Below, in pieces: positions 6,973 through 57,802 of a stretch of 64,000 nt of DNA. This DNA comes from Candidatus Nitrospira nitrificans (lineage in GTDB: Bacteria; Nitrospirota; Nitrospiria; Nitrospirales; Nitrospiraceae). Positions within the stretch are counted from its first letter, which is position 1, and each line of letters begins with the position of its first letter. The notes under the pieces were generated by a model. It did not search any database. It worked only from the letters and a program-made list of their open reading frames with translations, and had not been told where the DNA came from. Location: positions 62,001 through 126,000 of the forward strand of contig NZ_CZPZ01000035.1 of NCBI RefSeq assembly GCF_001458775.1, in the 5' to 3' direction. A program made the translations under genes and the position numbers.

Positions 6973-7944
6973 TCATCCGGCTCGTCGGAACTCTGCTCGA
7001 TCGCCATATTCTTCCGCCTGCACTTCGAGAGTGAGTGTCTCCGGTGTGCCGGTCATGCCGCCTGCGATCGATACACCTAACGTGACGAGGCCAAGTGCGG
7101 CGAGCCACATCGCAATCGTTCCCATACGATCCAGCGCGCGATTGCCGGCTTCAACGGATTGTTGTTTGACTTGCTCGGCCTTGTCCTTCAGAGGCTCTAT
7201 GAGCCCGATTGTCGATTGCACCAACTGCCTTGCCTGGGGCTCGGTCATATTCATCTTGGTGGTCATGACATTAATGGCTGCGTCACGGTCCAACGCCATG
7301 AGCTTTTGCTGCAATTCTCGAAGAGCCGAATCCGCCGTCTGTTGCGGCGGCTGTCCACTTTGTGATGAATCGGCTATGCGGTTCACATCCTTTCGCACCT
7401 CGCCTGGTTGGAGCTCCTTTTTCCCTGTCGCCGCCAGGATAGATTCGGTTTGGCGACGCAATTCGTCTATTGAAATTGAGATGCTGTCCCCGTTCAGTTG
7501 CGAAGCGGCCGCGGACACGACTGTCGTAGCCCCTTGGCCGAGACTTTGTAGCGTCGCACCGAAGGCGGAAAACACGCCGCCCAACATGGTGGCCATGGCG
7601 GTGGTCGTCAACCAAGCGAAGACCAGCCAGTTCACGCCCCAAACGATCAAGCCATGATAGAGGCCGTCGCTTCGCAGCCGGCTGCCGGACATGCGCGCGG
7701 TGATATAGCCCCCCATGAAGGCTGAGATGAGCATGGAAACGCCGGTCCAGATTCCGGTCCCGATCGGCACTCCGCTTCCCGATTCGGCATCCTGTAGATC
7801 GATCGACCAGGCGCCGATAGCCAGTCCCAGCAATGTGAGCACCAATTGTGTCGCGAGACCCACCACCCATCCTGCCATGACCGCGCCCCATCGCACTCGC
7901 ACTCCTCCGAATGCCCACTGTTCTATCGTTCGTTCCATCTGCAT
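6973..7944 (-). CDS. Multi-spanning membrane protein, probable sigma-54 regulon member
   Basis: A 323-residue membrane protein. A soluble N-terminus (MERTIEQWAFGGVRVRWGAV) is followed by three hydrophobic helices up to about residue 140, including a Gly-rich FMGGYITARMSGSRLRSDGL loop. A long soluble, coiled-coil-prone region (about 150-280, many Gln/Arg/Asp) follows, then a final helix near residue 295 (MWLAALGLVTLGVSIAGGM). The start is the ATG at 7944 after GGAGGTCTTC. The N-terminal half resembles TIGR04086/YrzE-like small membrane proteins, but I cannot name a family with certainty. A GG-N10-GC promoter lies 74 nt upstream, sharing an enhancer region with the divergent gene at 8336. Confidence 0.75.
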   Translation of the reverse strand: MQMERTIEQWAFGGVRVRWGAVMAGWVVGLATQLVLTLLGLAIGAWSIDLQDAESGSGVPIGTGIWTGVSMLISAFMGGYITARMSGSRLRSDGLYHGLIVWGVNWLVFAWLTTTAMATMLGGVFSAFGATLQSLGQGATTVVSAAASQLNGDSISISIDELRRQTESILAATGKKELQPGEVRKDVNRIADSSQSGQPPQQTADSALRELQQKLMALDRDAAINVMTTKMNMTEPQARQLVQSTIGLIEPLKDKAEQVKQQSVEAGNRALDRMGTIAMWLAALGLVTLGVSIAGGMTGTPETLTLEVQAEEYGDRAEFRRAG

Positions 7945-8017
7945 GAAGACCTCCGTGTAAAGATAAACCTGCCGATCCGCCGTATGCGGAAGGCAAGGTG
8001 CTTTTACGTATGCAATT

Positions 8018-8031
8018 GCAAGACCTTCGCC
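8018..8031 (-). promoter_or_regulatory. Candidate sigma-54 promoter for the 7944 gene
   Basis: The minus strand reads GGCGAAGGTCTTGCA: GG and GC are exactly 10 nt apart and the -12 element is TTGCA. It lies 74 nt upstream of the start. The tandem palindromes at 8102-8133 lie 77 and 96 nt further upstream, centre to -24 GG. Confidence 0.7.
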
Positions 8032-8101
8032 GGCTCTCAATAATGTGTTGGAATCTTGGGGCCTGGGGAATCGGCGCGCGAAATGCGGGAAGGACCGTTC
8101 G

Positions 8102-8133
8102 ATCCATCATGTCTCTATCTAGACAGCATGTCC
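8102..8133. promoter_or_regulatory. Tandem enhancer-type palindromes shared by two divergent sigma-54 promoters
   Basis: AGACA-GCA-TGTCC (8121-8133) matches the (A/G)GACA-N3-TGTCC sites seen upstream of other sigma-54-type promoters in this window. A degenerate partner ATCCA-TCA-TGTCT (8102-8114) is centred exactly 19 bp away, the same spacing as elsewhere. It sits between divergent promoters at 8018-8031 (minus) and 8276-8289 (plus). Confidence 0.6.
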
Positions 8134-8275
8134 ACGCTGAAAGATTTGCGCGGAGAAGTCCGGTATCGGCCTTGTCTCCTTTTCAAACAATCTTCTCTCC
8201 TGTTTTCAGCAGTTAATGAAGTCGAGGACATTCACTGGCGCCGTCCCGCCGACTGGCGTGAATGATTCCGGCAAC

Positions 8276-8289
8276 GGCACATGGGTTGC
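8276..8289 (+). promoter_or_regulatory. Candidate sigma-54 promoter for the 8336 gene
   Basis: The sequence GGCACATGGGTTGCA matches the TGGCAC-N5-TTGCA consensus at all core positions except the first T. It lies 47 nt upstream of the start codon. This is the best consensus match of the six in the window. Confidence 0.72.
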
Positions 8290-8335
8290 ACTTTGACAAG
8301 GCATCGCAACCATTATTTGTTCTAAAGGAGGCAGC

Positions 8336-8776
8336 ATGAAAATTCTTATCGCGTCCACGTTCCTTACCGTAGGAATCGGTCTAGTCGGAAGCATGGGGTT
8401 GTTTCTTGCGGCGGGGGCTGAGGAGCACACTACGTCGTCCGCGACACATCAGATGACCCCTAAATTTCCGAAGTCCGATAAATGCACCACTTCGGCGCCG
8501 TGCCGCGATGTGATTGGGGAAATTGTGAGAGTCGAGGAATCTTATTGGATTAAGATGCCCAATGGGCACGAGACTCATATGCGCGTCACTGCCGACACGA
8601 AGATGGATTCTCGTGTCAAAGTCGGCGATCCGATCGCGGCGCAATTGACGTCGAGCGGCACGGCGGATGCGATCAAAAAGTTGAAGGAGCTGCCGAAGCC
8701 CACTGAGTTGAGCATCGAGAAACAAACAAAAGAAGTAGAAGAGCCGACCACGTTAAAAGACATGCGCCAGAAATGA
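8336..8776 (+). CDS. Exported protein of unknown function, probable sigma-54 regulon member
   Basis: A 146-residue protein with a clear Sec signal peptide (MKILIASTFLTVGIGLVGSM... AAGAEE, cleavage near residue 28). The ATG follows TAAAGGAGG, a very strong ribosome site. The mature part has two Cys (KCTTSAPCRDV) and a beta-rich stretch (GEIVRVEESYWIKM ... TKMDSRVKVGDPIAAQL) like small OB-type metal or solute-binding domains. The C-terminus is charged and helical. No named family is recognised. It resembles in design the two-repeat exported protein at 54989. It has its own sigma-54-type promoter and tandem enhancer, so stress induction is likely. Confidence 0.75.
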   Translation: MKILIASTFLTVGIGLVGSMGLFLAAGAEEHTTSSATHQMTPKFPKSDKCTTSAPCRDVIGEIVRVEESYWIKMPNGHETHMRVTADTKMDSRVKVGDPIAAQLTSSGTADAIKKLKELPKPTELSIEKQTKEVEEPTTLKDMRQK

Positions 8777-17589: not shown

Positions 17590-17677
17590 GTTCGGTCTCC
17601 TTTCTTAAGTTGTATAGGCCCGAGGTGAATGAAAGGTGCTGGAACTTACTCTTCAAGCTTCGTTAAATAGAATGAGT

Positions 17678-17691
17678 GCAACGGTTATGCC
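17678..17691 (-). promoter_or_regulatory. Candidate sigma-54 promoter for the 17589 YflT-like gene
   Basis: Minus strand GGCATAACCGTTGCA: GG-N10-GC with TTGCA at -12. The 14-nt core is identical to that of the paralogue at 56181-56194, although the flanking DNA differs. It lies about 90 nt upstream of the start. Confidence 0.72.
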
Positions 17692-17782
17692 TTAGACTTC
17701 TCCCCTGGCCCTTGTGCGCTGAGCCTGTACACTCCTTGTCTTAAACCAATTGGTATGCAAAGCTTGTTGAAAGCAATGGGAT

Positions 17783-38955: not shown

Positions 38956-38988
38956 CGGACAATCTGTCCGGTTTCAGACAAGTTGACG
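38956..38988. promoter_or_regulatory. Orphan tandem palindromes of the enhancer type
   Basis: GGACA-ATC-TGTCC (38957-38969) is a perfect match to the site found upstream of six sigma-54-type promoters, and AGACA-AGT-TGACG (38976-38988) is centred 19 bp away. The nearest GG-N10-GC on the ActA side (minus strand, 38902-38889) has a poor -24 box and is only 61 nt away. Confidence 0.5.
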
Positions 38989-45842: not shown

Positions 45843-45878
45843 GGACAGGCTGTCTTCTTCCGGACAACTTGTTTCCGG
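45843..45878. promoter_or_regulatory. Tandem enhancer-type palindromes upstream of DUF4383
   Basis: GGACA-GGC-TGTCT (45843-45855) and GGACA-ACT-TGTTT (45862-45874, extended by CCGG on the right) are centred 19 bp apart. The proximal centre is 104 nt from the -24 GG of the promoter. Confidence 0.68.
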
Positions 45879-52583: not shown

Positions 52584-52767
52584 CGATCCGCCCCGAAACC
52601 GCCGTATCGTGGTGTCGCCAGCATACCCCCTGTTGGATATCAAACCTCCACCAGGTCCCGTACTGGGGAACCCACTAGTTTCAATCGAACCTTCCACACG
52701 TTACACGTACTGACTACGTACCTGATCGTGGACAGATCCGCGGCAGGAGCCTTTGGAGGATACCCGT

Positions 52768-54909
52768 ATGCGAATCTGGCCTGGCAGTCCCTATCCTCTC
52801 GGAGCGACATGGGATGGACAAGGGGTGAATTTCGCGATCTTCTCTGAAAACGCCACCAAGGTTGAACTGTGTCTGTATAACGAACCGCAGGACACCCAAC
52901 CCATCGCGTGTATCCCGATCGAGGAACGGACCGACGAGGTCTGGCATCTCTATTTACCCGAGGGGATGCCCGGACAGTATTATGGCTATCGCGTCCATGG
53001 CCCCTATGATCCGGCGCAAGGCCATCGCTTTAATCCCGCCAAGGTCCTCCTTGATCCCTATGCCAAGGCCCTATCGGGAACCATCCATTGGTCGGATGAA
53101 ATGTTCGGGTATCCCATCGGCCATGAGAATGCGGATCTCGAGCGTGACGATCGTGACAATACGGCCTTTATCCCCAAAAGCGTCGTGGTGGACACGGCCT
53201 TCACGTGGGGCAACGACCGCCTCCTGCGCACGGCCTGGGATCGGACGGTGATTTATGAAGTTCACGTCAAGGGGTTGACCGCTAGGCATCCGGACGTGCC
53301 GGAATCGCAGCGTGGAACATACCTTGGCTTGACCTCACCGGTCATTTTGGATCATTTCAAGCAGCTGGGCATCACGGCGGTTGAGCTGCTTCCCGTCCAA
53401 CATTTCGTCAGCGATCGGTACTTGACGGATAAACATCTCAGCAATTATTGGGGCTACAACTCCATAGGGTTTTTTGCGCCGGATATCCGGTACGCATCGG
53501 CGCACACGCACGGTCGCCATATCCGTGAATTTAAGACGATGGTGAAGACCCTTCACAATGAAGGGATCGAGGTGATTTTGGACGTGGTGTACAACCATAC
53601 GGCCGAGGGCAATCAGCTGGGCCCGACTCTCTGCTTCCGGGGCATCGATAACGCCGCGTACTACCGATTGGTCGATAACGACAAGCGGTACTACATGGAT
53701 TACACGGGCACGGGAAACACCTTGAATATGAATCACCCGCGAGTCCTCCAGCTCATCATGGACAGCCTTCGATACTGGGTGCAGGAGATGCACGTGGACG
53801 GCTTTCGGTTCGATTTGGCCTCCACGCTCGCGCGCGAGCTTCATGACGTCAACCGCCTCGGCACGTTTTTCGACATCATCCATCAGGATCCCGTGCTGTC
53901 CCAGGTCAAGCTCATTGCGGAGCCATGGGACTTGGCGTCCGGCGGATATCAAGTCGGCAACTTCCCATTGGGCTGGGCGGAATGGAACGATCGTTATCGA
54001 GACACGATTCGTCGGTATTGGAAAGGAGACGGAGGACAAGTCGCCGAGTTGGGTTATCGATTAACAGGGAGCAGCGACTTGTATGAACAAAGCGGCAAAC
54101 GCCCCTATGCGAGCATTAACTTCGTGACGGCACACGACGGTTTCACATTGAAAGATCTGGTTTCCTACAATCAGAAGCACAACGAAGCCAACCAAGAAGA
54201 GAACCGCGACGGCAGCGACAATAACAACAGCTGGAATTGCGGGGCTGAAGGCGGCACGGAGAATCCTGATATTTTGGCCCTTCGAGAGCGGCAAAAGCGC
54301 AATCTCATGGCGACCCTTTTTCTCTCTCAGGGAGTTCCCATGCTCTGTGGAGGAGACGAGATCGGGCGGACTCAACAGGGGAACAACAATGCGTACTGTC
54401 AGGACAACGAGACCAGCTGGTTCGACTGGAAGCTCCACAAAAGTGCACGGGAGTTCTTGTCGTTTACGCGGCAGTTAATCCGCCTTCGCAGGGAACATCC
54501 GGTGCTCCGGCGCCGTCTGTTTTTTCAGGGGCAACGTATCCATCGTTCGGAAGTGAAGGATATCGAGTGGTTCAAACCCGACGGCCAGGGAATGACTGAT
54601 CAGGACTGGCATGGCGATCATGCGCGATGCTTGGGGGTCCGGCTGGCGGGAGATGCCATAAAGGAGAAGGATTACAAAGGCCAACCTATCACGGGAGACA
54701 CGCTCCTGATTCTCTTGAATGCTCATCACGAAGCCGTTCCTTTTATACTGCCCGCGCATCGCAGCGGGGTTCGATGGGAACCTATATTAGACACGGCCAT
54801 CCAAGAGATCGATGAGAATGGGGACGAGTATCGCCAATTCCACGGTGGAGAACCTTACAATCTTCAAGCGCGATCCCTGGCAGTGCTCCGGTTGAGACGG
54901 AAACATTAG
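52768..54909 (+). CDS. glgX: Glycogen debranching enzyme GlgX (isoamylase type)
   Basis: A 713-residue GH13 protein with an N-terminal CBM48 (GVNFAIFSENATKVELCLYN, YYGYRVHGPYDPAQGHRFNP). Catalytic residues lie in HVDGFRFDLASTL, LIAEPWDLASGGYQVGN and FVTAHDGFTLKDLVSYN. GlgX-specific RNLMATLFLSQGVPMLCGGDE is present. It hydrolyses alpha-1,6 linkages of limit dextrins. The ATG at 52768 follows GGAGGATACCC; an upstream TTG in frame is inside that ribosome site. It is transcribed away from treZ. Confidence 0.95.
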   Translation: MRIWPGSPYPLGATWDGQGVNFAIFSENATKVELCLYNEPQDTQPIACIPIEERTDEVWHLYLPEGMPGQYYGYRVHGPYDPAQGHRFNPAKVLLDPYAKALSGTIHWSDEMFGYPIGHENADLERDDRDNTAFIPKSVVVDTAFTWGNDRLLRTAWDRTVIYEVHVKGLTARHPDVPESQRGTYLGLTSPVILDHFKQLGITAVELLPVQHFVSDRYLTDKHLSNYWGYNSIGFFAPDIRYASAHTHGRHIREFKTMVKTLHNEGIEVILDVVYNHTAEGNQLGPTLCFRGIDNAAYYRLVDNDKRYYMDYTGTGNTLNMNHPRVLQLIMDSLRYWVQEMHVDGFRFDLASTLARELHDVNRLGTFFDIIHQDPVLSQVKLIAEPWDLASGGYQVGNFPLGWAEWNDRYRDTIRRYWKGDGGQVAELGYRLTGSSDLYEQSGKRPYASINFVTAHDGFTLKDLVSYNQKHNEANQEENRDGSDNNNSWNCGAEGGTENPDILALRERQKRNLMATLFLSQGVPMLCGGDEIGRTQQGNNNAYCQDNETSWFDWKLHKSAREFLSFTRQLIRLRREHPVLRRRLFFQGQRIHRSEVKDIEWFKPDGQGMTDQDWHGDHARCLGVRLAGDAIKEKDYKGQPITGDTLLILLNAHHEAVPFILPAHRSGVRWEPILDTAIQEIDENGDEYRQFHGGEPYNLQARSLAVLRLRRKH

Positions 54910-56101: not shown

Positions 56102-56180
56102 CACTAATCTCCTTTCGTGAGGAGGATTATGCGTCCGAGGTGGCGAACGATTCGAGCGCGCGTCCTTCGCAACAGCCAAA

Positions 56181-56194
56181 GCAACGGTTATGCC
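56181..56194 (-). promoter_or_regulatory. Candidate sigma-54 promoter for the 56101 YflT-like gene
   Basis: Minus strand GGCATAACCGTTGCT: GG-N10-GC, identical in its 14-nt core to the promoter of the paralogue at 17678-17691. It lies 80 nt upstream of the start. Confidence 0.72.
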
Positions 56195-56283
56195 CTGCAT
56201 TCTCTTTACTCGAACCTGCATACTGAGCCCACAGCCCCCTCGGAAGCGCATTTCATTCGGCAAGGTTGATAACGCGCGTGAAC

Positions 56284-56323
56284 GATGCCAGACAGATTGT
56301 CGGCATCAGGACAATCTGTCTGG
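56284..56323. promoter_or_regulatory. Tandem enhancer-type palindromes upstream of the 56101 gene
   Basis: On the minus strand AGACA-GAT-TGTCC and CGACA-ATC-TGTCT are centred 19 bp apart. The proximal centre is 102 nt from the -24 GG. Confidence 0.7.
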
Positions 56324-57206: not shown

Positions 57207-57237
57207 AGACATTCATTCCCTATGCGGACAGATTGCC
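57207..57237. promoter_or_regulatory. Tandem enhancer-type sites upstream of the crystallin gene
   Basis: AGACA-TTC-ATTCC (57207-57219) and GGACA-GAT-TGCCT (57226-57238) are each half-conserved relative to the palindromes of the other loci, but their centres are 19 bp apart and the proximal one is 104 nt from the -24 GG, exactly as elsewhere. Confidence 0.55.
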
Positions 57238-57335
57238 TTGCCTCGCGAAGCGCTTCTGAAACCGTGCGCCGCAATTGAATTTTCGAAACCCTTCAGTCTT
57301 CACGTATCTAGATGCATTACCATGCAGGAGGTAAC

Positions 57336-57349
57336 GGCATACCCTTTGC
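57336..57349 (+). promoter_or_regulatory. Candidate sigma-54 promoter for the crystallin gene
   Basis: GGCATACCCTTTGCA: GG-N10-GC with TTGCA at -12. With the bases that follow it matches the promoter of the 17589 gene at 16 of 18 positions. It lies 70 nt before the start. Confidence 0.7.
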
Positions 57350-57418
57350 ACTCTTGTCTTACGGTCGCGCGACGATGGGTGTACTTCACATCTTGGTGCA
57401 ATCGAAACGGAGGTTACA

Positions 57419-57802
57419 ATGATGAGAGGAGCGTTGATATTGGCAGGACTGCTTGGCCTGGGCGCGATGTCCGCCTATGCCGCGGCAGACATCGAATTGA
57501 AGACAGTGGACAAGGCTTGTTGGGCCGAGATTTACGAGGATACCGGTTTTGACCTGAAAGATCCGCATGTCAAAATCCAAGGCCCTGCGCAGATCGCGAC
57601 ATTGAAGGATTACAGCGGCCGAAACTGGAGTAATGAGATTCAAAGCATTGTCGTGGGCCCCAATGCACACCTCAAGGCCTATTCGGATAAGGATTTCAAA
57701 GGAACAGAGTTGGAATTGACGCCGAATAAGCGAGCCAACGACTTGAGTGAGTTGAATATGGGCGATGAAATTGAGTCGTTGAAGATCACCTGCGGTGGGT
57801 GA
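57419..57802 (+). CDS. Exported beta/gamma-crystallin domain protein
   Basis: A 127-residue protein with a signal peptide (MMRGALILAGLLGLGAMSAYA). The mature protein has two Greek-key-like motifs: CWAEIYEDTGFDLKD with IQGPAQIATLKDYSGRNWSN and then HLKAYSDKDFKGTELELTPN with NDLSELNMGDEIESLKI. This is the beta/gamma-crystallin pattern, usually calcium-binding and stress-related. Two Cys may form a disulfide. The ATG follows ACGGAGGTTACA. It belongs to the sigma-54-type regulon. Its stop codon lies in the loop of a perfect 11-bp hairpin. Confidence 0.82.
   Translation: MMRGALILAGLLGLGAMSAYAAADIELKTVDKACWAEIYEDTGFDLKDPHVKIQGPAQIATLKDYSGRNWSNEIQSIVVGPNAHLKAYSDKDFKGTELELTPNKRANDLSELNMGDEIESLKITCGG

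Follow-up and report, generated by a model that had tools for sequence, protein, structure and literature searches.

A putative shared enhancer between two divergent sigma-54 promoters and a candidate regulon in Candidatus Nitrospira nitrificans

Comparison of related genomes indicates that a single 32-bp site in Candidatus Nitrospira nitrificans quite probably serves as a shared upstream activating sequence (UAS), through which a sigma-54 activator encoded at C35:24858-26315 would drive two divergent promoters. The site is situated at positions 8102-8133 of the window, i.e., the whole stretch of 64,000 nt that was analysed (C35:62001-126000 of the 4.1-Mb genome, labelled G000); positions given without a contig refer to this window. 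The initial annotation had proposed one enhancer for both promoters. Comparative evidence supports this proposal, since the layout is kept in five genomes, a second divergent gene pair is organised alike, and the UAS is associated with sigma-54 promoters far above any other dyad. Furthermore, the membrane gene of the pair has, where its partner is missing, either its own UAS and promoter or no UAS, and genomes with the sites tend to carry a matching activator gene, in most cases linked to the sites.

The UAS lies in a spacer of 391 bp (7945-8335) separating two divergent genes. The left gene (6973-7944, minus strand; ribosome binding site GGAGG at 7950-7954) codes for a multi-pass membrane protein of 323 aa (MQMERTIEQW...), the right gene (8336-8776, plus strand; ribosome binding site AAAGGAGG at 8324-8331) for a predicted exported protein of 146 aa with a hydrophobic N-terminus. 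Neither protein could be placed in a Pfam family, and no NCBIfam match of either passed a cut-off. Apart from a weak match in Ensifer, homologues of the membrane protein were confined to some members of Nitrospira and related genera; its closest named relatives are from Nitrospira metagenome-assembled genomes. In G001 and G024 (L042 and L043), two of the five genomes, the UAS and both divergent promoters are kept beside a truncated or broken membrane gene, reflecting either a recent loss or an assembly error.

The predicted UAS reads ATCCA-TCA-TGTCT-CTATCT-AGACA-GCA-TGTCC and consists of four half-sites. It matches 18 of the 20 positions of the consensus RGACA-N3-TGTCY-N6-RGACA-N3-TGTCY, which was generalised from the aligned sequence GGACA-N3-TGTCT-N6-AGACA-N3-TGTCC. 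The left outer half-site (ATCCA) is degenerate, which we count against the model. The core dyad TGTCT-N6-AGACA at 8110-8125, which also fits TGT-N10-ACA, is the top dyad upstream of sigma-54-like promoters. That a palindromic double site is located here between divergent genes was confirmed, and it is conserved in four relatives: the orthologous spacers of G016, G084, G001, and G024 contain the palindrome, with its core and right-hand TGTCC retained, together with both promoters. Since this region hardly differs between G016 and G084, the five spacers correspond to about four independent ones. From the edge of the UAS to the 16-mer promoter elements there are 75 bp on the minus side (conserved register) and 141 bp on the plus side; both distances are within the usual sigma-54 range. 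The dyad thus has the position of an activator site, about 70-200 bp upstream, and it recurs ahead of other sigma-54 promoters. Between the UAS and the plus promoter an extra block, GGAGAAGTCCGGTATCGGCCTTG (also given as GGAGAARTCCGGTATCGGCCTTG; 8153-8176), is conserved above the remaining spacer in the aligned orthologous spacers (13 of 24 columns invariant). No IHF site better than two mismatches was found in the spacer, and this too is counted against the model.

The plus-strand promoter was found where it had been proposed, at 8276-8289 (GGCACATGGGTTGC; predicted +1 at about 8301, leader of about 35 nt). Its GG and GC are 10 nt apart in a sequence resembling TGGCAC-N5-TTGCA, and the 16-mer CGGCACATGGGTTGCA (8275-8290, plus strand) scores 15.0 bits as a sigma-54 element, a value matched or exceeded on the plus strand by 0.1% of shuffled 391-bp spacers. 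A strong and a moderate element on opposite strands occurred in 0.05% of them. The promoter recurs as GGGCACATGRATTGCA in the orthologous spacers of relatives; it is conserved in the alignment with G016, G001, and G024 and was misaligned for one sequence in a later spacer alignment.

For the minus strand, a promoter had been annotated at 8018-8031 (CGGCGAAGGTCTTGCA, also given as GGCGAAGGTCTTGC), and the site-to-promoter distances given with it agree with that register. The register is present in this genome only, the relatives being without its -24 GG and -12 GC. It overlaps a second element at 8012-8025 (GGTCTTGCAATTGC; predicted +1 at about 8000, leader of about 56 nt), which reads AGGTCTTGCAATTGCA in the window and TGGTCTTTCAATTGCA in all four relatives. 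Across the five genomes 15 of its 16 columns are identical, compared with 42% spacer-wide; no other 16-mer of the spacer is conserved to this extent. In the window the element at 8018-8031 scores 10.3 bits versus 5.7 bits for that at 8012-8025; the latter has the GG-N10-GC arrangement and is weak here, reaching 9.0 bits in the relatives. The low score of the conserved register in this genome is a point against a shared enhancer. Because the register at 8012-8025 is near-invariant in the four relatives and the one at 8018-8031 is not conserved, the minus promoter is more likely located at 8012-8025, 6 bp from the annotated position. The annotated coordinates of this putative promoter needed revision.

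When the regions upstream of 84 sigma-54-like sequences were searched de novo for dyads, TGTCT-N6-AGACA came out first, being present ahead of 11 of them compared with 4 for the next dyad. Matches to at least 15 of the 20 UAS positions numbered 105 in 761 kb from activator-bearing genomes, whereas permuted half-sites gave 19-51. We counted a sigma-54 promoter if it scored at least 9 bits and was situated 40-215 bp off in the right orientation. By this measure, 33 of 45 sites with at least 18 of 20 matches stand beside a promoter, where random positions would give 3.2, and 10 of the 45 have promoters on both sides (0.13 expected). This is an enrichment of about tenfold for the one-sided and about 80-fold for the two-sided layout; the counted events are not independent, since the motif guided part of the choice of loci and orthologues are included. 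Statements on the whole genome are based on searches for patterns and protein families and on sequence stretches totalling about 760 kb. The palindrome with one mismatch is by itself barely enriched genome-wide (91 versus 76 in the control) and is informative only in combination with sigma-54 promoters and outer half-sites. No sigma-54 promoter lies near one exact core, at C35:148903, which was taken as a chance occurrence. For near promoters the distance to the UAS showed weak helical phasing (p about 0.01-0.02), for far promoters none, and phasing was therefore given no weight.

A second UAS is situated 36 kb away at C35:33850-33881 between CGGCCTGTGTTTTGCA (minus strand) and AGGCACTTCGCTTGCA (plus strand), with a PRC-barrel gene on the minus side and a gene similar to the Anabaena sensory rhodopsin transducer (ASRT-like) on the plus side. 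This pair with both promoters is also present in G016, G024, G084, G001, G090, and G091; the promoter on the PRC-barrel side recurs alone in G003, G010, G059, and G073, and in G007 a site stands ahead of the rhodopsin-transducer-like gene. Four further UAS-like sites were found in the window. That at 38957-38988 (18/20) is upstream of a minus-strand gene pair for a c-type cytochrome and a molybdopterin oxidoreductase, with a weak sigma-54 match at 53 bp; that at 45843-45874 (19/20) is upstream of a minus-strand DUF4383 gene, with the sigma-54-like sequence GGGCAAAGTTCCTGCA 96 bp away. The site at 56290-56321 (19/20) lies 94 bp from the sigma-54-like promoter GGGCATAACCGTTGCT (56180-56195, minus strand), and the one at 57207-57238 (17/20) lies 96 bp from the sigma-54-like promoter CGGCATACCCTTTGCA (57335-57350, plus strand). 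In five other Nitrospira records (L151, L152, and L154-L156), homologues of the membrane gene that have no exported partner are without a UAS.

Several additional observations were made at such sites. The gene at 57419-57802, preceded by the strong promoter CGGCATACCCTTTGCA and its UAS-like site, gives a weak beta/gamma-crystallin match. Near-identical sigma-54-like promoters GGCATAACCGTTGC are present at 17677-17692 and 56180-56195 (both minus strand), each having a long palindrome CAGACAGATTGTC-N8/9-GACAATCTGTC at a distance of about 95-125 bp and each preceding one of two paralogous genes (MASTVIGLF... and MDSTVIGVF...) that belong to no Pfam family. At G024:C1:584382 and G084:C349:4482 a UAS is found with a sigma-54 promoter 63 bp away; the gene ahead in G024 resembles the isoamylase-like gene of the window (52753-54909), and the copy in G084 is the sole perfect UAS (20/20).

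The genome encodes RpoN (PF04552 at C2:35396, E = 2e-57), and its sequence gave 23 strong hits for the sigma-54 activator domain. The candidate, a response-regulator-type activator gene at C35:24858-26315, is located about 37 kb to the left of the window start. It has REC, Sigma54_activat, and HTH_8 domains (PF00072; PF00158, E = 7.6e-68; PF02954) and shows the sequence GESGTGKE and an intact GAFTGA, and so combines an AAA+ domain with GAFTGA and Walker motifs and an HTH_8 domain as expected of a sigma-54 activator. Orthologues with 70-86% identity are present in 14 of 79 congeneric genomes; in the checked genomes without an orthologue the best match has about 50%. An exact core together with a sigma-54 element was found in 10 of the 14 genomes with the activator versus 3 of the 65 without it (Fisher p = 1.7e-7, a value that is not phylogenetically independent because the genomes are congeneric). 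Where both are located on one contig, the activator gene and the second divergent pair are mostly close together: 3-9 kb separate them in G000, G016, G024, G003, G090, and G091 and about 2 kb in G010, as opposed to 72 kb in G059. In G007 the activator gene, a receiver gene, and the membrane gene are consecutive, and the lone membrane gene has its own UAS with the matching promoter TGGTCCTGTTATTGCA at 74 bp. No histidine kinase linked to the activator was found among the matches listed.

The activator gene carries a UAS itself: in 13 genomes a site with 16-19 of 20 matches is located at the 3' end of the gene, and in G060 it stands just past the stop codon. We considered coding constraint (tail RTxYLxPDILS) as the cause of this conservation; it is disfavoured since the site in G060 follows the stop codon. 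In several genomes the UAS of the activator gene is about 75 bp before TGGACYGTTCTTTGCT, and a receiver-only regulator is encoded by the next gene after the activator in G000 and G007. Apart from this, a conserved sigma-54-like promoter TGGCAGTRTTYSTGCT is present outside the window at G000:C35:24646-24661, directed away from the activator gene; in several relatives it is 78-79 bp from a UAS, and in G090 a gene for a small exported protein lies ahead of it.

From the sites and promoters, their conservation and association, and the co-occurrence and linkage of the activator gene, all of which can be read from the sequences, we infer the following mechanism. The enhancer-binding protein (REC, AAA+ and a Fis-type HTH) would bind the 32-bp UAS, possibly triggered by phosphorylation, oligomerise there, and remodel sigma-54 closed complexes via looping, as would follow from what is known of sigma-54 systems such as those of ZraR and FhlA. 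From the single UAS it would contact sigma-54 RNA polymerase at 8012-8025 on the minus strand or at 8276-8289 on the plus strand, so that looping in either direction would open both promoters and co-induce the membrane protein and the exported protein. The same activator may serve a small envelope or stress regulon that includes the pair of PRC-barrel and ASRT-like genes and the neighbouring receiver-only regulator.

Other readings of the locus have to be weighed against this. The UAS could serve the plus promoter only; the minus match would then have arisen by chance or have decayed, and transcription of the membrane gene would start from another promoter. This would agree with the far higher score of the plus promoter in this genome (15.0 versus 5.7 or 10.3 bits) and with the broken membrane gene in G001 and G024; that this gene is broken there despite an intact minus promoter also speaks against a shared enhancer. 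We nevertheless regard it as improbable, as the minus element is the best conserved 16 bp of the entire spacer (15/16), and the membrane gene of G007, lacking a divergent partner, retains a UAS with the same type of promoter. Slightly less probable still is that a different sigma-54 activator binds the bidirectional UAS. The number of activator domain matches leaves room for this, the 22 other strong activator genes counting against our model, and a TGT-N10-ACA core is used by several Fis-type activators; against it, the orthologue of the gene at C35:24858 co-occurs with and is physically linked to the sites, and a UAS stands in or beside it in 14 of 14 genomes.

It is very improbable that the palindrome is the site of a regulator unrelated to sigma-54, e.g., a repressor, flanked by sigma-54-like sequences by chance. 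A single promoter match is weak evidence and simple scans yield many chance matches, yet the enrichment of promoters beside the motif, particularly on both sides, and the conservation of the promoters at the base level are difficult to reconcile with such a coincidence. A single UAS serving both promoters thus remains the preferred reading.

Among known activators, FhlA is without a receiver domain, and the upstream activating sequence of NifA is TGT-N10-ACA. The core found here, TGT-CTCTATCTAG-ACA, agrees with the NifA sequence in half-sites and spacing; in contrast to NifA, the candidate has a receiver domain, outer half-sites are added, and the genes are not those of nitrogen fixation. The candidate scored 340.4 bits against NifA (TIGR01817, cut-off 528.85; REC present, no GAF match), 416.8 against ZraR (NF007689, cut-off 760), and 488.9 against AtoC (NF008469, cut-off 714), which is nearest by score only and likewise below its cut-off. 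ZraR controls the divergent sigma-54 promoters of zraP/zraSR in Salmonella and E. coli (PMC4987338; promoter pair in PMC3844500). Shared with it are a response-regulator-type sigma-54 activator, divergent promoters in one intergenic region, and an envelope-stress theme, ZraR having a periplasmic protein as target. Unlike in the ZraR system, the activator gene is not divergent to its target, no adjacent kinase was found among the matches listed, and the motif comprises four half-sites in 32 bp. According to the account of Lutz et al. (1990) cited in PMC3844500, FhlA serves the divergent sigma-54 promoters of hyc/hyp; the hycA/hypA spacer is also listed in PMC8743547. There, too, one activator acts on divergent sigma-54 promoters in one intergenic region, but FhlA responds to formate and its site CATTTCGTACGAAATG (PMC4987338) differs from the UAS described here. 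In view of these precedents, the divergent layout with one enhancer is of a known kind.

The regulon, the motif, and the assignment of the activator to the motif appear to be new: none of them was found in the open-access literature searched, phrase searches of this literature for shared sigma-54 enhancers gave no match, and it gave only two papers in which Nitrospira occurs along with sigma-54 and an enhancer-binding protein, apparently neither of them describing a regulon of this genus. There is about an even chance that we are dealing with a new sigma-54 regulon that only some members of the genus Nitrospira possess, with a kinase-unlinked response regulator, an unusual four-half-site enhancer of 32 bp, divergent pairs at no fewer than two loci, and a feedback loop in which a UAS within the coding sequence of the activator, at its 3' end, drives the next gene. 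The targets and their neighbours, which include membrane, exported, PRC-barrel, and outer-membrane lipoprotein genes, suggest a role in envelope or general stress.

Nitrospira is hard to manipulate genetically. With a candidate activator, a binding motif, and a list of targets, an uncharacterised stress island becomes a testable regulon. Moreover, a single enhancer appears to be used repeatedly between two sigma-54 promoters, and depending on the species a given gene has its UAS 53-54 or 74-75 bp from the promoter; this natural variation would lend itself to studies of how two polymerases are served by one activator.
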